From positions 1,701,501 to 1,765,500 of the forward strand of contig NZ_CP106759.1 in assembly GCF_025642255.1 (NCBI RefSeq): a stretch of DNA of 64,000 bases. The letters run 5' to 3'. This document shows positions 34,513 to 43,481 of the stretch, piece by piece (the stretch's first letter is position 1; every line of letters starts with the position of its first letter). The notes beneath the pieces are model-generated. The model had not been told where the DNA came from. It worked only from the letters and a program-made list of their open reading frames with translations, and ran no database searches. The position numbers and the translations under genes were made by a program. This DNA is from Stenotrophomonas maltophilia (GTDB lineage: Bacteria > Pseudomonadota > Gammaproteobacteria > Xanthomonadales > Xanthomonadaceae).

Positions 34513-34589
34513 GGCCCCGTAGCTCAGCTGGATAGAGCGTCCCCCTCCTAAGGGGAAGGTCGCCCGTTCGAATCGGGCCGGGGTCACCA
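34513..34589 (+). tRNA. tRNA-Arg (anticodon CCU)
   Basis: A complete 77-base cloverleaf including encoded CCA. The acceptor stem GGCCCCG pairs with CGGGGTC (one G-U), the D-arm is AGCTCAGCTGGATAGAGC, the anticodon loop is CTCCTAA with anticodon CCT flanked by a 5-bp stem (TCCCC/GGGGA), and the T-arm is GCCCGTTCGAATCGGGC. It reads AGG arginine codons. Its 3' 49 bases form the attL repeat of the adjacent prophage remnant; a partial copy is at 42566-42614. Confidence 0.97.
34541..34589. repeat. attL: 49-bp direct repeat
   Basis: The 3' part of tRNA-Arg(CCU) from CCCCCTCCTAAGG to CGGGGTCACCA is repeated without mismatch at 42566-42614. Integration therefore leaves an intact tRNA at this left end. 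Confidence 0.95.
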
Positions 34590-34694
34590 GAATCAATGAG
34601 TTGCGTCGTTTCTTTAGAGAGGCTCAGCTCTATATCGCCGTGAATAGGCCGATTTCTGGCACAGTTGGCACAGTTCAATCGAGCTGTGCTGACC

Positions 34695-35582
34695 ATGGAA
34701 GAGCCTGAGAAGATGGACCTCTACTGCTGCTTGTCGTCTCTTCAGCTGGGAGGCCAGACGTTCGACCTGGGCCGTGGGTTGTCGATTGCCCCCGCTTACA
34801 CGCATGTCATGTCCAGCGCGATGATTGCCGTTAAGCGACCAGCAGCACCGGGCCGGCATCATCCCGGTCCTTGGGCTGCGACGGGGAACGGGTTCGCTTT
34901 CGATTCCGAGGCAGTTCTTTTTATCCCCGCAGGCTACAGTCGCGCCAAGTCTGACTCCGGAGCCGTGGCACGATACATCGCAGGGCTGCTTCGCCTGTGG
35001 GTCGATCCTCGGATTCGCTGGATCCTGGCGTCCAATATCCCTCCTCACAAAATTGAATGGGCGCCTGAAAAGGGGAGGGTGCAGGTTGCTTCTGCGGTCG
35101 AGGTTCAGCCCTGGTACTTCGAACTGCATCCGGCGACTGAAAGGGATGCTTTGAAGGATTTGGAGTGGATTCGAGATCACTGGGAAGCCGCGATCGATCT
35201 GGCTGAATCGAGCGCATCGTTCAGCCTGGCGTTGGACGCAATTTCGAACGTTCAATTGGTTCACAGCTCTGCCCTTGGACTGGTCTCTGTCTGGGGCGCA
35301 CTTGAAGCTCTTTTCACGGGGGCAAATAGCGAGCTCAGGTTTCGCGTATCAGTGATGATCGCCGCCTACCTGAGAGGTCCGGGGCCCGAGCGAATCGCCC
35401 AGCACAAGCGAGTCATGAAGCTCTACGACGCGAGGTCTGCCGCAGCCCACGGGTCTCCAAAGCATTCCTCGGACGACTTGCTGGCATCGCTGGAGCTACT
35501 GCGCAAAGTCATCATAAAGATGATCGAGTCCAGGCGTGTACCGACAAAGGAAGAGCTCGAAAGCCTTCTGTTTGGTGCATAG
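34695..35582 (+). CDS. ApeA-like HEPN-domain protein
   Basis: Cargo gene placed just inside attL. The 295-aa protein has no signal peptide or membrane helix. The N-terminal ~170 residues are beta-rich and unrecognised. The C-terminal part, from SSALGLVSVWGALEALF through LRFRVSVMIAAYLRG to KLYDARSAAAHG and ELLRKVIIKMIE, matches the ApeA-type HEPN domain, with an intact R-x4-H motif (R-SAAA-H) that forms the RNase site in active HEPN proteins. HEPN RNases often act in toxin-antitoxin and phage-exclusion systems. The start is uncertain (ATG 34695, ATG 34710 or TTG 34665). It is convergent with the integrase remnant. The defence role is an inference. Confidence 0.75.
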   Translation: MEEPEKMDLYCCLSSLQLGGQTFDLGRGLSIAPAYTHVMSSAMIAVKRPAAPGRHHPGPWAATGNGFAFDSEAVLFIPAGYSRAKSDSGAVARYIAGLLRLWVDPRIRWILASNIPPHKIEWAPEKGRVQVASAVEVQPWYFELHPATERDALKDLEWIRDHWEAAIDLAESSASFSLALDAISNVQLVHSSALGLVSVWGALEALFTGANSELRFRVSVMIAAYLRGPGPERIAQHKRVMKLYDARSAAAHGSPKHSSDDLLASLELLRKVIIKMIESRRVPTKEELESLLFGA

Positions 35583-35589
35583 AAGCGAG

Positions 35590-36135
35590 TCAGTACCTCA
35601 GCTTTGAGACGGCGCCGTCATCTCCATCTGGAGTCAGGTGAGCGTAGTACTTCTCAGTGGTTGCATAGTCTGCATGACCCGCGAGTAGCTGAACGCGACG
35701 CAATGGCACGCCAGCCATCACCATGTGGGCGCAGAACGTATGGCGAAGCCTGTGCAGATGCCCACCGACGCCGGCCAGCTCCGAATCCTTCTTGAACCAG
35801 TCCGACACGGTGTCCTTGTGCACGGTGACGAGCGGATCTGGCAGGTGGCGCAGCGCCCATCTGGCATAACGGTTGAGGGGAACCTCCCGCCACTTCCCTG
35901 ACTTCGTGCGGCCTTCGCCGCTTTCGTCCGGATCGCTTTCCACGAGGAGGCGCCCGGCCACGACTGAGCTCTTCTCCAGACCGATAATCTCGCCTCGCCT
36001 TAGCCCGGTGTGGGCCATGAAGAGCCACAGCGGCGCCCGCTCAGGATTCGCCCGATACAGCCGGCGCATTGCCGCTCGGCCACGCGCGGACAGACGCAAT
36101 GGCGACTGGGCATGCGGCTGGTGCCAATCACGCAC
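35590..36135 (-). pseudogene. Tyrosine integrase, N-terminally truncated
   Basis: C-terminal catalytic domain of a phage tyrosine recombinase, 181 aa from a GTG at 36135 against roughly 330-400 aa for complete phage integrases. All catalytic positions remain: Arg in HTGLRRGEIIGL, Lys in TKSGKWREV, the HxxR in HRLRHTF, His in LLAGHADYATTEKYY and the final nucleophile Tyr. The arm-binding and core-binding N-terminal domains are gone; the sequence beyond the GTG reads straight into antisense ninB. The fragment is therefore a deletion product and is unlikely to catalyse integration or excision alone. Confidence 0.88.
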
Positions 36136-36167
36136 TACGCCGGCCCGCTGTCGAAGAGGGAAGCAGA

Positions 36168-36572
36168 GTGACCTCCATCCGTCCCGAAGACTGGAAGCAG
36201 CGCGGCGAAGGCATGATGACCCCCAAGCAGCAGCGCATGCTCAACGCCATCTGCGGCGACTTGGCCGAGGGCCTGTCCTGGCACGGCCAGCGTCTGACGA
36301 AGGACGACTGGCGCCACATGGTGGCGGGCACGATGCTGGGTTGGCGCCTGATGCCGGCGATCGACCGGGGGCAGGGCGCCCCCGGAATGATCATGCTCGG
36401 CGGCTCAAGCTTGAAGCTCACCAGGTCGATGGCATGCGACGCAATCACCGTGCTGGTTCAGATCGGTGATCACCCCGAAGAGCAGGGCCTACGCGCCACG
36501 CCGGTTCGCTGGTCCGACACCGTGCTGCTCGGTCTTGGGTTCAATCCTCACGATTTTTCGGAGGCTGCGTGA
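36168..36572 (+). CDS. ninB: NinB-family recombination protein
   Basis: Phage DNA recombination protein (Orf family of lambda) of 134 aa that binds single-stranded DNA and helps load recombinase. The central block LSWHGQRLTKDDWRHMVAG, TMLGWRLMPAIDRGQG and the closing RWSDTVLLGLGFNP show the NinB family. GTG at 36168 is chosen because AGAGGG lies 7 bases upstream; the extra 33 codons further upstream read into integrase antisense. In lambda it starts the nin region, and here too rusA and a Q-like gene follow. An unrelated antisense gene separates it from the rest. Confidence 0.86.
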   Translation: MTSIRPEDWKQRGEGMMTPKQQRMLNAICGDLAEGLSWHGQRLTKDDWRHMVAGTMLGWRLMPAIDRGQGAPGMIMLGGSSLKLTRSMACDAITVLVQIGDHPEEQGLRATPVRWSDTVLLGLGFNPHDFSEAA

Positions 36573-36580
36573 GCACGAAC

Positions 36581-37243
36581 CTATTCAGCAGTACCTGCTG
36601 CAGCTTCCGCTGCAGCGGCTTTTCTTGCTGCGACCTGGGCCGGAAGAGTGAACGTGTAGGTCAGGAACAGTTCCGTGAAACTCGCAAGTTGTGCAATTTC
36701 CTCTTCGCTCAGTTCGTCGTCATCGTGCGCACCGTGGTTTCCGTCAAGCCGAATCAAGTGCGCCCATTCCTTCAGGTCATCGGTCAGCTTTCCAGCTTTA
36801 TGAAGGGCGTCAATTCGTGGAGCGAGGTTCTTTCCGGCCAGAGCGGGATCGATCTCTCGCGTAGCCACGTCAAGCGCCTTTCTGTACATCGCCGCAGCGG
36901 CGTCCGCATGGCCTCGCGCCGCATTGTGGGCACCCTGTATGTACGCCCTTTCTACCGACGGGGATATGTGCTGGGGGACCTCAAGTCGCCCTGGAGCTGG
37001 ATATATCTTGCGTATTTCAGCTCCCTGGCTACGACAAACCTTCTGAAACTCACCATTTTCTCCCGTTATCCAGCCATGATTCGTGGATCTATAACTGATG
37101 GAAACGCAAACGAGATCATTACAGGCGTTGCATCGAAACACGACAGTTGGATCGACACCCTTAGGAGCAGCGGTCGCCACGTAAGACATTCCGACCGATT
37201 CCGCCAAGCAATGTGGGCATGTGCCCACGAAGGTAGTTGCCAT
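36581..37243 (-). CDS. DUF4145 (HEPN superfamily) protein with zinc ribbon
   Basis: Cargo gene transcribed against the phage genes around it. The 220-aa protein starts with a zinc-ribbon (CPHC at about 9-12 and CNAC near 39-42), followed by a helical DUF4145 domain with AYIQGAHNAARGHADAAAAMYRKALDVA, IDALHKAGKLTDDLKEWAHL and IRLDGNHGAHDD. DUF4145 belongs to the HEPN superfamily and the R-LDGN-H stretch gives an R-x4-H motif. The C-terminus is an Ala-rich helix. Such domains occur alone or fused in restriction and defence loci, but their activity is untested. Its ATG (37241-37243) overlaps the ATG of the divergent ORF at 37242 by two bases. Confidence 0.75.
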   Translation of the reverse strand: MATTFVGTCPHCLAESVGMSYVATAAPKGVDPTVVFRCNACNDLVCVSISYRSTNHGWITGENGEFQKVCRSQGAEIRKIYPAPGRLEVPQHISPSVERAYIQGAHNAARGHADAAAAMYRKALDVATREIDPALAGKNLAPRIDALHKAGKLTDDLKEWAHLIRLDGNHGAHDDDELSEEEIAQLASFTELFLTYTFTLPAQVAARKAAAAEAAAGTAE

Positions 37244-37424
37244 GAATGAAATTCCTGTCCGGTCAATGGTAATTTCCGAGGAACTGAGGACGATCGACTG
37301 CAGGACTCCGGGGAGGCTGCTGGAGCATTATGAACGATGCTCAGAGGGGCAGCGACTCGAATATGTGGCCGCACTGGCGGTCGCCCTATGCGTCAGCGAA
37401 CAGCGGCGAAGGGCGGCCAAGTAA
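37242..37424 (+). CDS. Small phage protein, unknown
   Basis: A 60-aa protein beginning MNEIPVRSMVISEELRTIDC and ending in a basic RRRAAK. No family is recognised. It resembles the many short nin-region proteins of lambdoid phages in size and position. An AAGG site lies before the ATG. The stop overlaps the next gene's ATG as TAATG, so it is translated with the DUF1364 gene. Its start shares two bases with the start of the antisense DUF4145 gene. Confidence 0.6.
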   Translation: MNEIPVRSMVISEELRTIDCRTPGRLLEHYERCSEGQRLEYVAALAVALCVSEQRRRAAK

Positions 37425-37732
37425 TGCACGGAAACTACCGCGACCGCGACCTGCTGGACCTGGCGTATCGGATCCAGTGCACGCTCCTTATCCCTGGCGT
37501 CTGCGTGGGCGGATACGGCGAGCCTTGCCACAGCAACCAGAGCCGGCACGGTAAGGGTGGGGCGATGAAGGCCCACGACTGCTTCTTCGCCAGTGGCTGC
37601 CGGGCCTGCCATCAGGAGCTGGATCAGGGCCGCAGATACACCGAGGAAGAGAAAGCCCTCATCTGGCAGGCCGGCCATGAACGAACCGTTCTCGCCATGT
37701 GGCAGGACGGACTGGTCATGGTGGCCGTATGA
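37424..37732 (+). CDS. DUF1364 (YdfU-like) nuclease-type phage protein
   Basis: Phage protein of 102 aa in the DUF1364 group. It has a Cys/His pattern compatible with an HNH-like or zinc-bound fold: IQCTLLIPGVC, EPCHSNQSRHGKGGAMKAHD, and FFASGCRACHQELDQGRRYT. In lambdoid prophages the family sits in the nin region, near rusA, as here. The start at 37424 overlaps the upstream stop (TAATG) and the stop overlaps the rusA ATG (ATGA), so three genes are coupled. Nuclease activity is assumed from annotation of the family, not proven. Confidence 0.85.
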   Translation: MHGNYRDRDLLDLAYRIQCTLLIPGVCVGGYGEPCHSNQSRHGKGGAMKAHDCFFASGCRACHQELDQGRRYTEEEKALIWQAGHERTVLAMWQDGLVMVAV

Positions 37733-38367
37733 CCATCCGGATCGTGGTCTACGGATCCCCGGCACCTCAGGGGAGTAAAGCCTTCAAGGGCACCTACAAG
37801 GGCCGGGATGGGCTCGTTCACGCCAAACTGGTGGAGGCGTCGAAGAAGGTGCGCCCATGGCGACAGGACGTGAAGCTGGCCGCCGAACAGGTGCGCAAGG
37901 CACTGGGTCTTGCCGTGCTGGACGAGCCGCTGCAAGTCCGGATGACCTTCACGTTGTCCAAGCCGCTGAGCGCCCCGAAGCGCCGAAGGGTCTTCCCCAG
38001 TAAGTTGCCCGACCTGTCCAAGCTCGTGCGATCGACTGAAGACGCTCTGACCGACGCCGGCATCTGGCGCGACGACGCCCGAGTTGTGGAGTGCACCGCG
38101 GCGAAGCGCTACCCGGGCGAGGGGCGGACGCGCTCGATGCACCTGGTTGCGTCATCGAGATCAGCCGGGTCGGACCATGAGCCTCGCCGCCGCTGTCCGG
38201 TTCTGGATGGGAGAGCACCCCGGCTGGCACCTCGCTTCCGAGATCGCCGATGGCATGCAGGCGTGCGGAATCAACAGAAGGAAGGCCATCAAGGCGCTTT
38301 GCAACATGGCCGACGCCGGGCTTGTCCAGGTGGCCGGCAACCGCCGACACATGCGCTACACCATTGA
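37729..38367 (+). CDS. rusA: RusA-family Holliday-junction resolvase, frameshifted near the C-terminus
   Basis: Phage endonuclease that resolves Holliday junctions as a dimer. The family core is intact: YGSPAPQGSKAF near the start and LPDLSKLVRSTEDALTDAGI followed by WRDDARVVECTAAKRYP, which carry the metal-binding Asp residues and basic contacts. After GEG (about 38120) the frame changes into sequence antagonistic to the next gene, running to 38367. In the +1 frame the expected ending VIEISRVGP appears and stops at 38180, overlapping the next ATG as ATGA. A one-base loss in the G-run at 38121-38124 explains this. The normal length is about 150 aa. Confidence 0.82.
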   Translation: MTIRIVVYGSPAPQGSKAFKGTYKGRDGLVHAKLVEASKKVRPWRQDVKLAAEQVRKALGLAVLDEPLQVRMTFTLSKPLSAPKRRRVFPSKLPDLSKLVRSTEDALTDAGIWRDDARVVECTAAKRYPGEGRTRSMHLVASSRSAGSDHEPRRRCPVLDGRAPRLAPRFRDRRWHAGVRNQQKEGHQGALQHGRRRACPGGRQPPTHALHH

Positions 38368-38413
38368 CCGGCCAAGCCGGGACCATATGCAACAGGAGAG
38401 AAGAGATGGCTGA
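38177..38413 (+). CDS. Small winged-helix-like phage protein
   Basis: A 78-aa protein (MSLAAAVRFWMGEHPGWHLA at the start). The middle, SEIADGMQACGINRRKAIKA followed by LCNMADAGLVQVAGNRRHMRY, has the helix-helix-wing spacing of a small winged-helix DNA-binding domain such as those replacing repressors or replication factors in phages. No exact family is recognised. The ATG at 38177 overlaps the original (pre-frameshift) rusA stop as ATGA, and its own stop overlaps the next gene. Confidence 0.68.
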   Translation: MSLAAAVRFWMGEHPGWHLASEIADGMQACGINRRKAIKALCNMADAGLVQVAGNRRHMRYTIDRPSRDHMQQERRDG

Positions 38414-39119
38414 CCGACGCGAACTGCTGGCACGGCTCAATCCCCAGACCTGCAGGTTTGATGTCGGGCAGGGCGGTGGCACGCCCTCGTTGCAGACATC
38501 CGACATCGCCGCCGCGCTGGGAATGGTTCCGCCCGGGCTTGGCCGTGAGGTCATGGAGGCCGTCTACCTACCGGACGGGGCAATGCGGCATCGGGCTAAG
38601 TTGGCCGAGGCGGTGCTTGCAATCGTGCGCCCCGAGTTCACCCGGCGAGCGCGTGCACTGGCCGAGGCCGAAGAGGATCTGAGCTTCTCCAAGGAAATGG
38701 TCAGCCTGAGCCGGCGCAGTCTGTCCGACGCCCAGCGGCGGATCCTGGGGGAGCGGGAGGCTGCGGTGGCGAGCGCACGCGCCAACGCCTGGCCGAGGAA
38801 CACCTACCAGCACCTTTCGCGCATGGTCGACGCAGTGGTGGCGGAACTTTCCAGCGGCAACCGCTGCCCCCACTGCAAGGGCGCCGGACTGGTGAACGAC
38901 AAGGGGTGTCCTGAGTGCAGGTGCACCGGGATAGAGCCGTTGCCGGATCGCCGGCGAGCGATGGCCATCGACTGCCATCCTACGGACTATCCGAAACGCT
39001 GGAAGCCCGTGTTCGAATGGTTGCTTGCCGAGTTGAATCACGCCGGTGAGGCCGCAGCGCGACAGCTGTCCCGCGCATTGAGCAATCGCGACCAACCAGC
39101 TCAGCCGCGCGCTGCGTAG
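38406..39119 (+). CDS. Q-like phage antitermination protein with zinc motif
   Basis: A 237-aa protein at the position of the late antiterminator Q in lambdoid phages, after rusA and before the phage tRNAs and lysis gene. It contains a DnaJ-like zinc knuckle, CPHCKGAGLVNDKGCPECRC (about residues 156-175), preceded by helical sequence with SLSRRSLSDAQRRI and followed by a basic C-terminus, as in AntiQ-type proteins. The start ATG at 38406 has GGAGAGAAGAG upstream and overlaps the previous gene by 8 bases. With late genes gone, it has no obvious target left. The family call rests on zinc motif and gene order. Confidence 0.66.
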   Translation: MADRRELLARLNPQTCRFDVGQGGGTPSLQTSDIAAALGMVPPGLGREVMEAVYLPDGAMRHRAKLAEAVLAIVRPEFTRRARALAEAEEDLSFSKEMVSLSRRSLSDAQRRILGEREAAVASARANAWPRNTYQHLSRMVDAVVAELSSGNRCPHCKGAGLVNDKGCPECRCTGIEPLPDRRRAMAIDCHPTDYPKRWKPVFEWLLAELNHAGEAAARQLSRALSNRDQPAQPRAA

Positions 39120-39130
39120 GTTTCAAAAAT

Positions 39131-39149
39131 GTAGAGTTGCTGACTCTAC
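39131..39149. other. Perfect inverted repeat after the Q-like gene
   Basis: GTAGAGT (39131-39137) and ACTCTAC (39143-39149) form a 7-bp perfect inverted repeat with a 5-base loop, 12 bases after the Q-like stop codon. No T-run follows on the + strand, so a terminator is doubtful. It could be a regulatory site or a small GTAG-headed repeat relic. Confidence 0.5.
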
Positions 39150-39260
39150 GAAATCCCCTGTAGATTCCCTACCATCGCGAGGCTTGGCCACCGGCCAACA
39201 CTGACTTTGCTGTAAAATCAGCTCCGCGGAATGAGCCGCGCCCGTTCGAGTTGGATTTCT

Positions 39261-39494
39261 ATGCGAGTCACTTTGTCTGTACGAAAGCTCGGTGGACAAT
39301 GGATGTTTAACAAGGGCAGTCATCTTGGCGTCGGAGCGATGCCGGGACGGTGGCCGAATCTCGAAATGGCTCTGCAGGCGGCTGAGGACGAAGCGATGAG
39401 CCATCACAGCCGGACTGGCGACACTGTAGAGATAGTTGTGCACGAAGAAGGCCGTCAGTACCGGCACAATTACCAAGCCGGGATCAAGCCTTAA
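39261..39494 (+). CDS. Small DUF2188-like hypothetical protein
   Basis: A 77-aa protein (MRVTLSVRKLGGQWMFNKGS). A strand-rich first half is followed by a helix, LEMALQAAEDEAMSHHSRTG, then VEIVVHEEGRQYRHNYQ. This strand-helix-strand order with a closing V-E-I-V-V-H-x-x-G resembles the DUF2188/YegP type of small protein, but the match is weak. A terminator follows 26 bases downstream, before the phage tRNA genes. It is probably a phage moron-type gene. Confidence 0.6.
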   Translation: MRVTLSVRKLGGQWMFNKGSHLGVGAMPGRWPNLEMALQAAEDEAMSHHSRTGDTVEIVVHEEGRQYRHNYQAGIKP

Positions 39495-39520
39495 CAGGCT
39501 TTACATTGTTGCTTTGAAGG

Positions 39521-39545
39521 GCCCCGCCATCCCGCGGGGCTTTTT
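39521..39545 (+). terminator. Intrinsic terminator before phage tRNAs
   Basis: GCCCCGC (39521-39527) pairs with GCGGGGC (39534-39540) around a 6-base loop and is followed by TTTTT. It closes the transcript of the 77-aa gene. A Q-like antiterminator would normally be needed to pass such sites in the late operon. Confidence 0.88.
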
Positions 39546-39551
39546 CGTTTT

Positions 39552-39625
39552 GCGGGTCTGGCCGAGTGGTCAGGCTGCAGCCTTCCAAGCTGCCCACATG
39601 GGTTCGATTCCCATGGCCCGCTCCA
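39552..39625 (+). tRNA. Phage-borne tRNA-Gly (anticodon UCC)
   Basis: Seventy-four bases with encoded CCA. The acceptor stem GCGGGTC pairs with GGCCCGC (one U-G), the anticodon stem GCAGC/GCTGC encloses CTTCCAA with anticodon TCC, and the T-arm is ATGGGTTCGATTCCCAT. The discriminator base is T, as in bacterial tRNA-Gly. It lies inside the prophage remnant just before an initiator-like tRNA-Met. Confidence 0.92.
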
Positions 39626-39691
39626 TCTACGCCCGTGACCCCCGACCGGATCAACCCTCGCGCCCAGCCGGCAGCGGGGCGGGCACCTACC

Positions 39692-39766
39692 TGCAGCGTA
39701 GAGAAGCGGCATCTCGCCGGGCTCATTACCCGGAGGTCGCCCGTTCGAGTCGGGTCGCTGCTGCCA
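39692..39766 (+). tRNA. Phage-borne initiator-like tRNA-Met (anticodon CAU)
   Basis: Seventy-five bases ending in CCA. The stem TGCAGCG/CGCTGCT pairs at six positions and has a T-T mismatch at 1:72. The anticodon arm is CCGGG-CTCATTA-CCCGG, giving three G-C pairs next to the CAT anticodon loop. Both the 1:72 mismatch and the GGG/CCC pairs are hallmarks of initiator tRNA. The T-arm is GCCCGTTCGAGTCGGGT. The D-arm is short (GAG/CTC). It could be a functional extra initiator tRNA or a decayed copy. Confidence 0.85.
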
Positions 39767-39782
39767 CCGCAATGAGGAACCC

Positions 39783-40277
39783 ATGGTGAGCATCGAGACT
39801 GTCGCCGCCGGTATGGGGTTCTCCCCGGGCCTGGCGCTGGCGCTGGAACAAGCCTGCATTCGCTTCGGCATCAACACCGAGCTGCGGGTCTGCCATTTCC
39901 TCGCCCAGGTGGCGCACGAAAGCGGAACCGGGCGATGGCTCAAGGAGCTGTGGGGTCCAACCCCGGCCCAGTCGCGCTACGAGGGCCGCAAGGATCTGGG
40001 CAACACACAGCCCGGCGATGGCTTTCGCTTCCGAGGGCGGGGTGGCATCCAGCTGACTGGCCGGGACAACTACACCCGTTACAGCCAGGCCATCTACGGC
40101 GATGATCGCGCGGTCCGCAATCCGGACCTGCTGGCCAACCTTCCGGACGCTGCGCTGGCCGCTGGCTACTTCTGGCAGCGGGATGGGATCAACTCGGTCG
40201 CAGATGCTGCTGATCCCCCAGCACAACCTTCTCTTAGCCGCGCGCGGATCGACCCAGTTCTTTCTCCGGATCTATGA
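39783..40277 (+). pseudogene. GH19 phage endolysin, C-terminally broken
   Basis: Lysozyme/chitinase-fold endolysin that would cut peptidoglycan at lysis. About 140 residues match GH19: CIRFGINTELRVCHFLAQVA, the catalytic-glutamate region AHESGTGRWLKELWGP, RYEGRKDLGNTQPGDG and FRFRGRGGIQLTGRDNY, then AGYFWQRDGINSVADA. The conserved last helix (INGG...GLxDR) is missing; after about 40203 the frame enters unrelated sequence and stops at 40277. The break marks a deletion that joined the endolysin to remains of later genes. A GAGGAA site precedes the ATG at 39783. Confidence 0.85.
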
Positions 40278-41027: not shown

Positions 41028-41516
41028 TTACTGGCAGTCGGCGTCATCAACTGGATGCTCCGGCGGACGGAACACTGGAACCGTAATACTCGTAAGGCCG
41101 ACGCGTCCACTAATCGACTGAACGAGCTCGCGCCAGTACGGCCAAGCGTTATAGGGGCCGTTGACCTTTGCGAAGTGCTCGAGGCACTTCGCGTCTAAGT
41201 CAACATCGCGGTCAATCGAGTACGTGATCCCATACTCGGCTTCGACTACGAGCGCGTCGCTGTCGCTCGGCTCGGTATCCTCATCCTCAGGAGCGTCGGA
41301 GGCATGAAAGACGAACCCGACCAAGATCGTGAGAATGCCCTCGGATCGGAAGCGCGAGTCATCGCAAGCCGCACGGTAACCCTGTCGGAGTCCGAGAGAC
41401 CCAGGGATGTTGAGCACATCAAAATTGGTCTTGACGCTGCTGCTGCGGAGCGTAACAACTTGAATTTCGACGTGCTTAGCTACCCGTCGCGCCAAATCGA
41501 GATTGGTAGTCACCAC
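41028..41516 (-). CDS. SecB-like chaperone of a toxin-antitoxin-chaperone module
   Basis: A 162-aa cytoplasmic protein resembling solitary SecB-like chaperones (Rv1957 type), which protect an unstable antitoxin. Features are beta-strand-rich N-terminal half with SFMP-free acidic loop (DAPEDEDTEPSDSD), the strand EAEYGITYSIDRDVD, then CLEHFAKVNGPYNAWPYWRE and LVQSISGRVGLTSITVPVFR, the conserved PYxRE-to-G(F/L)xxxxxP stretch of SecB. It is the third gene of the operon; GTG at 41516 overlaps the antitoxin stop by 7 bases. Canonical SecB, with its secretion role, should be encoded elsewhere. Assignment rests on this motif and the operon context. Confidence 0.78.
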   Translation of the reverse strand: MVTTNLDLARRVAKHVEIQVVTLRSSSVKTNFDVLNIPGSLGLRQGYRAACDDSRFRSEGILTILVGFVFHASDAPEDEDTEPSDSDALVVEAEYGITYSIDRDVDLDAKCLEHFAKVNGPYNAWPYWRELVQSISGRVGLTSITVPVFRPPEHPVDDADCQ

Positions 41517-41926
41517 ATGGCACCCGCGCGGGCTTCACGCTGCCCGAGAGGATTCAAGTCGTCCTTCCACTGCGTCTTTTGCCGCAGAGGAATGACGGTA
41601 TTCAACGCATGCGGCCTAACAGGAGCAGGAATGAACTGTCCAAAACGAAGCGGCTCAAATTTCACAACGGCGCGCTTCCCGCAGGCCCATGCCAAGTCGG
41701 AGATGGTTGCGAGGGTCGCATTACGCGCGCCAGAGAAAACCTGGCTCACATGAGATCTGCTCGTGCCCAAAGTACGGGCAACGTCAGCTTTCGTGATTCC
41801 GGCCGCCTCCATCATTTCGGCAATAGAGTCAAGTGTCCAGAGCTGCAATCGCTCGCGCTCGTACTCTCTGCGCGCCTCTTCGCTCTCTTCCTGACGGTTA
41901 ACCCACAGCTCATTTGCCGTATTCAT
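41510..41926 (-). CDS. higA: HigA-type XRE antitoxin with long C-terminal extension
   Basis: Antitoxin of 138 aa that should neutralise the upstream HigB toxin and repress the operon. The HTH is clear at about 40-85: LDSIAEMMEAAGITKADVAR followed by TLGTSRSHVSQVFSGARNAT and LATISDLAWACG. About 50 further residues (FEPLRFGQFIPAPVRP onward, ending GAMW) form an extension that plain HigA proteins lack; in toxin-antitoxin-chaperone systems this part is the chaperone-addiction (ChAD) segment. The start overlaps the toxin stop as ATGA, and the 3' end overlaps the SecB-like gene. A matching operator palindrome lies in the promoter. Confidence 0.86.
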   Translation of the reverse strand: MNTANELWVNRQEESEEARREYERERLQLWTLDSIAEMMEAAGITKADVARTLGTSRSHVSQVFSGARNATLATISDLAWACGKRAVVKFEPLRFGQFIPAPVRPHALNTVIPLRQKTQWKDDLNPLGQREARAGAMW

Positions 41927-42291
41927 CCATCTTCTCCGTTAAAACGCTCTTTGCAGGCTTCCGCAAAGCTGATATCGGCCTTGCCGTGCTTATCCTTCTT
42001 TTTCCGAAGTGCACGACAGATGATCAAGCGCCCCCCAGGCGCATAGAAGCAAAGCAACCGGATTTGGAACGACTTGAATTCGAAAATTCCGTTGCTCCCT
42101 TCCAGCTTCTTAAACTTCTGATCGTTGGAAATCCGGCCTCGCTCTCCCATGAGCTCGAAAAGCGTATCCACCTTGCGTCGATCTGAAGAATCGAGCGCGT
42201 CCAAGAATTCTTGGACCTGTGATACGCCATCGTCCGTGCAGAGAAGTTCAATGCATTTCTGGGCCCCCTGATACGCAATCTTGGTAGCCAA
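41923..42291 (-). CDS. higB: HigB/RelE-superfamily toxin (Gp49-like)
   Basis: Toxin of 122 aa, likely a ribosome-dependent mRNA endonuclease. The sequence VQEFLDALDSSDRRKVDTLF, KFKKLEGSNGIFEFKSFQIR and LLCFYAPGGRLIICRALRKK is the HigB-2/Gp49-type layout, ending in a Lys-rich segment and AEACKERF. It is the first gene of a three-gene operon, the toxin-first order usual for higBA. Start is TTG at 42291, supported by GGAGG 7 bases upstream; the weak start may hold toxin levels low. Promoter and palindrome lie 50-80 bases upstream. Confidence 0.88.
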   Translation of the reverse strand: MATKIAYQGAQKCIELLCTDDGVSQVQEFLDALDSSDRRKVDTLFELMGERGRISNDQKFKKLEGSNGIFEFKSFQIRLLCFYAPGGRLIICRALRKKKDKHGKADISFAEACKERFNGEDG

Positions 42292-42342
42292 CTAGCGCCC
42301 TCCGTCGAAGACGAAGCACGGGCAAGCCTCTCGGCGAGGAGC

Positions 42343-42371
42343 ATTGTTAATTCGAGTATTAACAGTGTCAA
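42343..42371 (-). promoter_or_regulatory. higBA-secB-like promoter and operator
   Basis: On the - strand, TTGACA (complement of 42366-42371) is followed after exactly 17 bases by AACAAT (complement of 42343-42348). Inside lies a perfect inverted repeat TGTTAAT-TCGAGT-ATTAACA (42345-42364) that overlaps the -10 box. This is the expected site for HigA autorepression. The toxin start is 52 bases downstream. The flanking 42292-42565 stretch holds no other supported gene. Confidence 0.82.
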
Positions 42372-42565
42372 TAGCCTGCGCGTTCAGCTTCGCGAGGCCC
42401 GAGCCTACGTTCACCGCTCTACGAGACATCCGTGCCCCTCGCGCCCCTAATTTGTCGCTTGGCCTTTGTACCATGTGAACGAGGTCACGGTCACGGTTGG
42501 CAAGCTCGGCCACCCAAACATGGCACACCGCCGCATGACAGTCTTGAGGCAACTGCGCTGGGCGC

Positions 42566-42614
42566 CCCCCTCCTAAGGGGAAGGTCGCCCGTTCGAATCG
42601 GGCCGGGGTCACCA
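42566..42614. repeat. attR: 49-bp direct repeat of tRNA-Arg 3' end
   Basis: Identical over 49 bases to 34541-34589, including the encoded CCA. The upstream sequence does not continue as a tRNA, so this is only the partial copy left at the right junction. It marks the right end of the remnant; unrelated sequence follows. Confidence 0.95.
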
Positions 42615-42735
42615 TCGGTCAATTGCCCGCAGATGATCAGGCGGGTACCGCTTCTGCTTGCGGCGTGCTTGCCACCCGCCACAGTGCGTTGGAAAAGGGC
42701 GTGCGGCGGCCTTGTCTGCCTTCCGCCAGGCTCAC

Positions 42736-43035
42736 CTAGGGGCGATCCAGGTCGTCTGGCAGCAGGCCAGCGAGTGCGAGTATTCGATCGTGCCTGATCT
42801 GCTGCACCCAGTGGCCCCAGGCATCCGCCGCCGTCAGGACATCGATCGAGCCGCAGGCGGGACACCTCAGTTGCACCCCCCCGTGCACATCGGTGAGCCC
42901 GCACCCATGCGACATCCGTGATTCGTCCCCGCATGACTTGCACTTGGCCTGCACGGAATCCAACCGTTCGATGGTGGCATCCAGGCGCAGCAAAGGGCGG
43001 ATCCGCAGGATCCGGAATGCAACAGGAGTGGTCAT
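42736..43035 (-). CDS. Small zinc-ribbon protein, unknown
   Basis: A 99-aa protein (MTTPVAFRILRIRPLLRLDA). Four Cys in two knuckles, CKSCGDESRMSHGC and LRCPACGS, suggest a zinc ribbon, followed by a helical tail (GHWVQQIRHDRILALAGLLP). No known family is recognised. The ATG is clear but no strong ribosome site is seen. It lies just outside attR and is not part of the repeat-bounded element, although it could derive from an older insertion. It is divergent from nothing obvious. Confidence 0.55.
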   Translation of the reverse strand: MTTPVAFRILRIRPLLRLDATIERLDSVQAKCKSCGDESRMSHGCGLTDVHGGVQLRCPACGSIDVLTAADAWGHWVQQIRHDRILALAGLLPDDLDRP

Positions 43036-43481
43036 GTGTCTTGCCGGTCAGGGGCTGGACACGGAGGCGAGGAATTTCGCGCCCAAGAGAAGCCGAATGC
43101 AGTGACCATACAGCATGAACTGTTAAGACTCTCGTTCTTGACAGCCCTTATTTCGTTCTGGTGAGGGGCCGAGGGTTCGCGAGAGAGGCGAGGAGCCTGA
43201 ACATCCAGTCAGGTAAGCATGCCGTTTTCACACAAGGCTAACTGCTGAGCGCCCAGTTTCACTGCAGCGTGACGGGTCGGCAGGGGGACTCGTGGCAGGC
43301 GTTGGTCTGCGATGCGCAGCGCTTCCCCCATGACCAGCAGGATCCGAATGAAACGCAATGCCGTGACGTCCGTTGGCGTCGGACCGGGCGCCGTGCCCCT
43401 GTGCTGCCGGGGGCGCCATGCCGTCTTCCCTGCACGCGCACGTCGACCCGCTTGCCCGATCACTCCCCCGGCGGCCGGGTG
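43036..43481. other. 446 bases without a supported gene
   Basis: Several overlapping reading frames of 60-130 codons exist on both strands, but none shows a ribosome site, a recognised domain or a consistent composition. I see no tRNA, terminator or clear repeat. A TTGACA at about 43138 is a possible -35 element with no paired gene. Confidence 0.4.

Follow-up and report, generated by a model that had tools for sequence, protein, structure and literature searches.

Do three overlapping genes at the end of a prophage remnant in Stenotrophomonas maltophilia constitute a toxin-antitoxin-chaperone (TAC) module, and what would such a module do for the element or the cell that carries it? TAC switches are known from tuberculosis bacteria and E. 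coli, and some of them act as phage alarms. The genes in question lie on the minus strand, from position 42291 to position 41028 of a 64,000 nt stretch of contig NZ_CP106759.1 (the window; contig positions 1,701,501 to 1,765,500), where an earlier note, made from the sequence alone, had described a TAC operon. Our analysis indicates that the operon is very probably a TAC module, carried as accessory cargo beside the right attachment site (attR) of a lambdoid prophage that is now a remnant, and most likely working by the mechanism proposed below.

The open reading frames (ORFs) are intact and overlap one another, as the note had stated. The toxin gene (41923..42291, 122 aa) starts with TTG, has GGAGG seven bases 5′ of that codon, and shares 4 bases with the antitoxin gene (41510..41926, 138 aa, ATG start); the SecB-like gene follows (41028..41516, 162 aa from its first GTG). 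A second GTG at 41513, giving 161 aa, is the more likely start, because it creates a GTGA overlap and a protein beginning M-[TI]-T-N, as in the three nearest relatives of the operon, from Rhodanobacter (L021), Pseudoxanthomonas (L022) and a metagenome-assembled genome (L032); the third frame of the note therefore stands, with a probable length one residue shorter than it gave. TTG is likewise the toxin start in L021 and L022 and a possible one in L032. Such a start may hold toxin synthesis below antitoxin synthesis.

The toxin belongs to the Gp49/HigB family of the RelE superfamily (PF05973, E 9.2e-10, 38.9 bits vs. a cut-off of 23.9) and is a predicted ribosome-dependent mRNA endonuclease. 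Pfam gave no ADP-ribosyltransferase match, and up to E 1 there was neither a PADLOC match nor a HigB or HigB-like Pfam family; as a single sequence against the Protein Data Bank (PDB), the toxin had four weak matches, none of them a HigB. With a profile of 22 family toxins (A6), HigB proteins are matched in S. pneumoniae (E 2.2e-11) and M. tuberculosis (HigB1, E 1e-4). In HigB1, alanine changes at K58, R68, R77, K95 and K99 are reported to inhibit toxicity, with a strong effect also for a change at N73 (PMC9098466). By our reading of the profile alignment, K58, E66, R68, R77, K95 and K99 of HigB1 correspond to K61, E71, K73, R78, K97 and K101 of the window toxin, and N73 and Q98 have no clear counterpart. 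R78 and K97 are kept in all 22 toxins, the remaining mapped residues being more variable. Judged by these residues, the window toxin looks competent.

The third gene encodes a protein with a SecB fold, as seen in its predicted structure. As a single sequence it finds M. tuberculosis Rv1957 in the PDB at E 0.0056, and the sole PDB sequence match of a profile of 49 chaperones, the window's included (A4), is again Rv1957 (5mtw, E 4.3e-12). The AlphaFold2 model (mean pLDDT 89.4, pTM 0.82) combines four long strands with two helices, one of them long; its top Foldseek match is 5mtw (E 6.9e-10), followed by E. coli SecB. In particular, VIA-align 2 superimposes the model on 5mtw with a Z of 15.8 (rmsd 1.9 over 135 residues, 16% identity) and on E. 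coli SecB 1qyn with a Z of 12.9 (rmsd 2.7 over 132 residues), and every other row falls below Z 9, including two streptococcal proteins of unknown function at Z 8.3-8.7. The SecB-like identity claimed by the note was thereby borne out, a SecB-fold match being present. That the gene could be the genome's housekeeping secB was ruled out, since a canonical secB lies elsewhere (G000:C1:166817, E 4.7e-53). A scan of viral contigs with the single chaperone protein confirmed none of nine candidates, and the L021, L022 and L032 chaperones match nothing in PADLOC. Two phage families of unknown function, phrog_16879 and phrog_20189, match SecB-like TAC chaperones.

The antitoxin is a HigA-type helix-turn-helix (HTH) protein (HTH_3, E 1.8e-8), whose AlphaFold2 model has a pLDDT of 95-98 at residues 31-90 and of 50-63 from residue 101 onward; on this model, the C-terminal tail is probably disordered. 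The tail runs for 56 residues after C82, holds W119 and W138, and contains the predicted chaperone-addiction (ChAD) region. Across 70 TAC antitoxins, the part past the residue aligned with C82 is at least 48 residues long (median 56), as compared to 10-21 residues in all 16 two-gene controls (Mann-Whitney p 5e-10); the maximum of 203 (L086) reflects a misplaced domain end, the next longest tail is 81, and another alignment gives a range of 48-96. The window tail is therefore about 35-45 residues longer than those of two-gene relatives, so that the extension described by the note is real and its size somewhat smaller than the 50 or so residues proposed. The controls were hand-picked from 37 loci (L108-L144), once 4 duplicates, the locus of the window itself and 16 further loci had been set aside, the 16 because they had no toxin and antitoxin matches side by side at E 0.01; the only SecB-like match among the 37 was the window's own. 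A few of the 72 other antitoxins look MqsA-like (for example, L046, L047 and L073), having been called by a permissive iterated profile, and these three fell out of the tail-length comparison, leaving 70 of 73 rows.

Tryptophan is found in the tails of 55 of the 70 TAC antitoxins and in none of the 16 controls, whose tails are short; counting the window's, it occurs in 58 of 73 tails, where the frequency of Trp in the HTH part would predict 42% (p 7e-11). A C-terminal extension has already been reported as the feature that sets TAC antitoxins apart from two-component ones, together with the findings that binding of the chaperone by the M. tuberculosis antitoxin HigA1 jointly requires W108 and W137 of its extension and that HigA1 without its last 42 residues is a chaperone-independent antitoxin (PMC5105189). 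By analogy, the window antitoxin seems to need the SecB-like chaperone via its tail, and a Trp-bearing tail is at most consistent with chaperone addiction.

A single promoter precedes the toxin gene, a sigma-70-type TTGACA-17-AACAAT with 10 of 12 consensus bases (42343..42371, minus strand); the scanned region has one further promoter-like site, and shuffled sequences had 0.5 on average. Most of the spacer between the -35 and -10 boxes is filled by a 20-bp palindrome, TGTTAAT-ACTCGA-ATTAACA (42345..42364, core GTTAA-N8-TTAAC), which we take as a predicted site of HigA autorepression. The -35 box and 17-base spacer of the note are as described; its palindrome lies mainly in the spacer, and not over the -10 box, of which it overlaps only four bases. 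The window operon and L021, L022 and L032 all have promoters of the form TTGACA-N2-GTTAA-N8-TTAACAAT, with the TTGACA ... AACAAT layout 5′ of the toxin. More widely, 38 of 68 loci (the window and 67 of the surveyed loci L021-L100) have a match to GTTNA-N8-TNAAC in the 200 or so bases 5′ of the toxin's estimated start, and in about half of the 38 it comes shortly after TTGAC; over 200 first-order Markov shuffles, the number of loci averaged 0.33 and never exceeded 2. An operator common to TAC promoters across several phyla suggests a conserved antitoxin-DNA code in the family; no report of such an operator was found among the titles and abstract openings consulted.

The three genes recur together in other genera. 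At E 0.001, a relative of the chaperone is present in 11 of 397 genomes of the order, the window's own included, and in 6 of 395 genomes of the family; the operon itself is present in one of two same-species genomes examined. In Pseudoxanthomonas (G032) and Rhodanobacter (G080), the whole trio is found with its order preserved; the toxins and antitoxins are 53-59% identical to those of the window, and the chaperones 41-42%. The remaining eight order-level chaperone matches adjoin antitoxins that resemble MqsA or HicB, labels assigned to L004-L011 by eye from the sequences, with L012-L014 left out.

For a broader survey, genome contigs were scanned with a ten-row alignment, resulting in 229 confirmed relatives, the best 80 of which were fetched; because they were found through one motif, [NH][VA]WP[YF]WR[EQ], the 80 loci are biased towards chaperones that possess it. 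An antitoxin relative lies upstream of the chaperone in 72 of the 80 loci, and both antitoxin and toxin in 67, of which 65 have the order toxin-antitoxin-chaperone; the exceptions are L042, with the antitoxin before the toxin, and L028, with both in one read-through frame. Three of the 13 loci without both partners (L037, L061 and L094) start less than 300 bases from the locus edge. The loci span Planctomycetota, Gemmatimonadota, Acidobacteriota, Actinomycetota, Pseudomonadota and other phyla. Recurrence of the whole operon in other genera is more than chance, and from these sequences the operon is a conserved unit. The nearest TACs also stand by mobile genes: beside L021 lies an integrase, beside L022 the gene for a small terminase subunit, and beside L032 a transposase-like ORF read by eye and without a PHROG match. 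Separately, two lambdoid phages have TAC-like trios with a SecB-like third gene beside the cI repressor: Escherichia phage PhiR70_1 (L106, 1685-3207), with an MqsA antitoxin by Pfam and its products annotated as hypothetical proteins, and Klebsiella phage 2b LV-2017 (L105, 2691-4207), where the trio is not annotated.

Among characterized systems, the closest is Rv1955-Rv1956-Rv1957 (HigB1-HigA1-SecB-TA) of M. tuberculosis. It shares with the window operon the gene order, a Gp49-like HigB toxin with matching active-site residues, and an HTH antitoxin whose C-terminal extension has two Trp, and Rv1957 is the best fold and profile match of the window chaperone. The sequence similarity is remote, the tail sequences differ, and the window operon is prophage-borne; moreover, HigA1 is described as ending in Val-Ala, an end read by ClpX, which the window antitoxin lacks (PMC8165232). 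CmdTAC (PD-T4-9), an anti-T4 defense of E. coli, has in common with the window operon the three-gene logic and a SecB-like third component; in contrast, its toxin CmdT is an mRNA ADP-ribosyltransferase. Its antitoxin CmdA, like those of other known TACs, is reported to end in LAA, a ClpXP signal, whereas the window antitoxin ends in GAMW (PMC11618068). The note had named both types: the order and make-up of Rv1955-1957 agree with the window operon, and strict membership in CmdTAC was ruled out, since the toxin family differs (Gp49, no ADP-ribosyltransferase match). HigBAC of E. coli C496, reportedly activated by the lambda major tail protein, has HigB, HigA and SecB-like components with a RelE-superfamily toxin, as in the window. 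Its toxin is grouped under PF_HigB / PF_HigB-like (PF05015), apart from PF_gp49, according to PMC11980606, whereas that of the window is PF05973.

The MqsRA-SecB and HicAB-SecB TACs, some of them phage-borne beside cI, have a related SecB-like third gene, and their toxin and antitoxin families differ from the window's. Two-gene Gp49/HTH (HigBA) modules have a homologous toxin and HTH core; unlike the window operon, they have the short tail already described, and no chaperone gene was found in them. Overall, the window operon is very probably a TAC module of the Rv1955-1957 type, prophage-borne, with a diverged chaperone and an antitoxin end without alanine. The kind is already known: earlier catalogues of SecB-associated modules cover the HigBA, MqsRA and HicAB types among others (PMC4257090, PMC5105189), so that the surprise is modest.

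The operon is carried in an 8.0-kb lambdoid prophage remnant at tRNA-Arg(CCT). The left attachment site (attL; 34537..34589, plus strand) is the 3′ end of the intact tRNA gene (34513-34589), and attR (42562..42614, plus strand) is a 53-nt copy of it with 98% identity, 191 bases from the operon's -35 box; 8,025 bases separate the repeats, and the operon is the last cargo before attR. In G081, a genome of the same species, the insert is missing: its one tRNA-Arg copy runs straight into sequence that matches the window's right flank (42562-42651, resuming from 43193). Further, the GC content of the operon is 54-57%, vs. 63-68% for the chromosome flanking the element. The remnant contains a tyrosine integrase truncated to its C-terminal part (35590..36135, minus strand; PF00589, E 3.5e-19; phrog_1 positions 277-447 of 611) and, on the plus strand, a NinB-like gene (36069..36572; PF05772, E 6.1e-8), a RusA-like Holliday junction resolvase (37711..38367; PF05866, E 1.3e-10; phrog_140, E 2.1e-27), a Q-like antitermination gene (38250..39119; phrog_127, E 8.2e-22) and a truncated GH19 endolysin (39783..40277; PF00182, E 1.2e-5, positions 53-155 of 232; phrog_181, E 1.3e-40). 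A YbcO-like ORF and a DUF4145 gene (a DNA-binding protein according to PHROGs) are also present. No capsid or terminase match was found among the remnant ORFs scanned, and the only tail match is a weak one between the endolysin domain and the tail-fiber family phrog_3201 (E 3.6e-6). The prophage setting recognized in the note is confirmed by the repeats, the truncated and other phage genes, and the empty site in G081.

In a congeneric genome, G375, this tRNA is likewise occupied by a related element, which matches parts of window positions 35608-39687; no relative of the chaperone was found in G375 by the family genome search, which makes the TAC an accessory part, and three ORFs in the corresponding stretch of that element have no PADLOC or Pfam match. 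Both G375 (L103) and the congener G086 (L102) carry different DNA after tRNA-Arg(CCT), which suggests a hotspot of integration. The leftmost part of the window's element holds a 305-aa ORF (34665-35582) that is without a Pfam or PADLOC match and may be further cargo. Genes for tRNA-Gly(TCC) and tRNA-Met(CAT) lie inside the remnant (39552-39766), and the spacer between them matches the related element of G375. To the right of attR, positions 42652-43192 are a second difference from G081, with a 99-aa zinc-ribbon-like ORF that weakly matches Mu Com (E 0.002).

Characterized TACs suggest how the module would operate. The HigA-type antitoxin would bind and silence the mRNA-cutting HigB/Gp49 toxin and repress the promoter through the palindrome between its -35 and -10 boxes. 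The unstructured, Trp-bearing tail would leave the antitoxin unstable or sticky unless held by the SecB-like chaperone, presumably a tetramer. When the chaperone is occupied by another client, most plausibly a newly made phage protein (compare the capsid protein in CmdTAC), the antitoxin would be lost, and the freed toxin would cut ribosome-bound mRNA, stopping growth and phage production. As to its role, phage defense is our best guess, held at slightly better than even confidence. The known TACs CmdTAC and HigBAC are described as phage-defense systems (PMC11618068, PMC11980606), and of 21 new E. coli defense systems obtained in one selection, 12 were located in prophages (PMC9519451), which makes this role the favored one.

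Several observations weigh against the TAC reading and its proposed mechanism. As a single sequence, the chaperone is below the cut-off of PF02556 (E 0.24, 11.7 bits vs. 26), the SecB profile named in the note, and its match to the CmdTAC chaperone profile PD-T4-9_C of PADLOC is weak (E 0.0015). L021 and L022, the nearest complete relatives, have tails without Trp, which is thus not obligatory; tail composition is variable overall, and the ChAD assignment is based on where the tail lies, its disorder and its Trp. PADLOC matched none of six ORFs neighboring the operon, so no other defense gene was recognized there, and the phage-defense step, plausible as it is, draws on analogy. Finally, the GAMW end of the antitoxin has no hydrophobic residue followed by Ala, whereas 48 of the 72 other family tails end in AA, VA, LA or IA.

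The last point was followed across the family. The antitoxins of the three nearest relatives end in GGL (L021), KCG (L022) and SCM (L032). An Ala end is frequent in the two-gene controls too (7 of 16, with AA, VA, LA or IA in 4), and the hydrophobic-Ala end is therefore only moderately enriched in TAC tails (46/70 vs. 4/16, Fisher p 0.004). Its loss was rejected as a clade marker: the 49-row chaperone tree requires 14 changes, the mean with shuffled labels is 14.6, and 225 of 500 such shufflings are as low. The window, L021 and L032 group together on this tree (support 96/69), all without the hydrophobic-Ala end; within the wider seven-row group that includes L022 (99/98), three rows have it. 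The trait is thus scattered, a variation within the family; an end of two hydrophobic residues, usually with Ala as the second, is common in TAC antitoxins and does not define them. A doubtful possibility is that the window operon and the related proteobacterial TACs L021, L022 and L032 free their toxin by a non-ClpXP route, and not through reading of a hydrophobic-Ala end; their antitoxins end in MW, GL, CG and CM, respectively, and all four retain the chaperone gene and the operator. If so, the chaperone would mainly prevent aggregation, or degradation would depend on a different signal and a protease other than ClpXP; these TACs could also have another phage trigger than CmdTAC and HigBAC.

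The main alternative to defense accepts the same TAC biochemistry and assigns it a selfish role, in which the operon stabilized the prophage through post-segregational or post-excision killing and persists since its loss is costly. The position of the operon just inside attR would fit, as would the mobile genes beside its nearest relatives and its presence in one of two same-species genomes, and we consider this role a serious possibility, somewhat short of an even chance. Yet the operon has remained intact in a remnant that is without most phage genes and has a truncated integrase, and the reported functions of CmdTAC and HigBAC argue for defense. The two roles can coexist. A decayed or inactive module, with frames open by chance in a recently inserted remnant, would fit the truncated phage genes around it, such as the integrase and endolysin, and the relatives are too distant for a dN/dS test of selection; however, the lengths of 122, 138 and 162 aa agree with those of the two nearest relatives (120-122, 134-142 and 164-178 aa), the toxin has both invariant residues, R78 and K97, and the W125-E130 block of the chaperone is intact, as are the promoter and operator, making decay quite improbable. 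The argument of the note, that intactness points to selection, holds as to the intactness; the step to selection is only suggestive, though the operon is intact at 41-59% identity in two other genera.

It is likewise very unlikely that the locus is a usual HigBA pair and that the gene downstream has nothing to do with it, its SecB-fold product serving export or another client. The Pfam SecB score far below its cut-off and the poor conservation of the tail sequences would agree with such an arrangement, but both partners lie upstream of the chaperone in 67 of 80 loci across phyla, tail length tracks the presence of the chaperone gene, and the genome has its canonical secB elsewhere.

With this operon, TACs laid out like Rv1955-1957 gain a prophage-borne member from the family that includes Pseudoxanthomonas, and the gathered loci provide data across phyla on a single TAC family with a common operator. 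With its diverged chaperone, its antitoxin end without Ala and its easily cloned operon, the module can probe the generality of ClpXP in TAC activation. TAC chaperones are suspected to be phage sensors, and the operon can also probe which phage proteins they sense.

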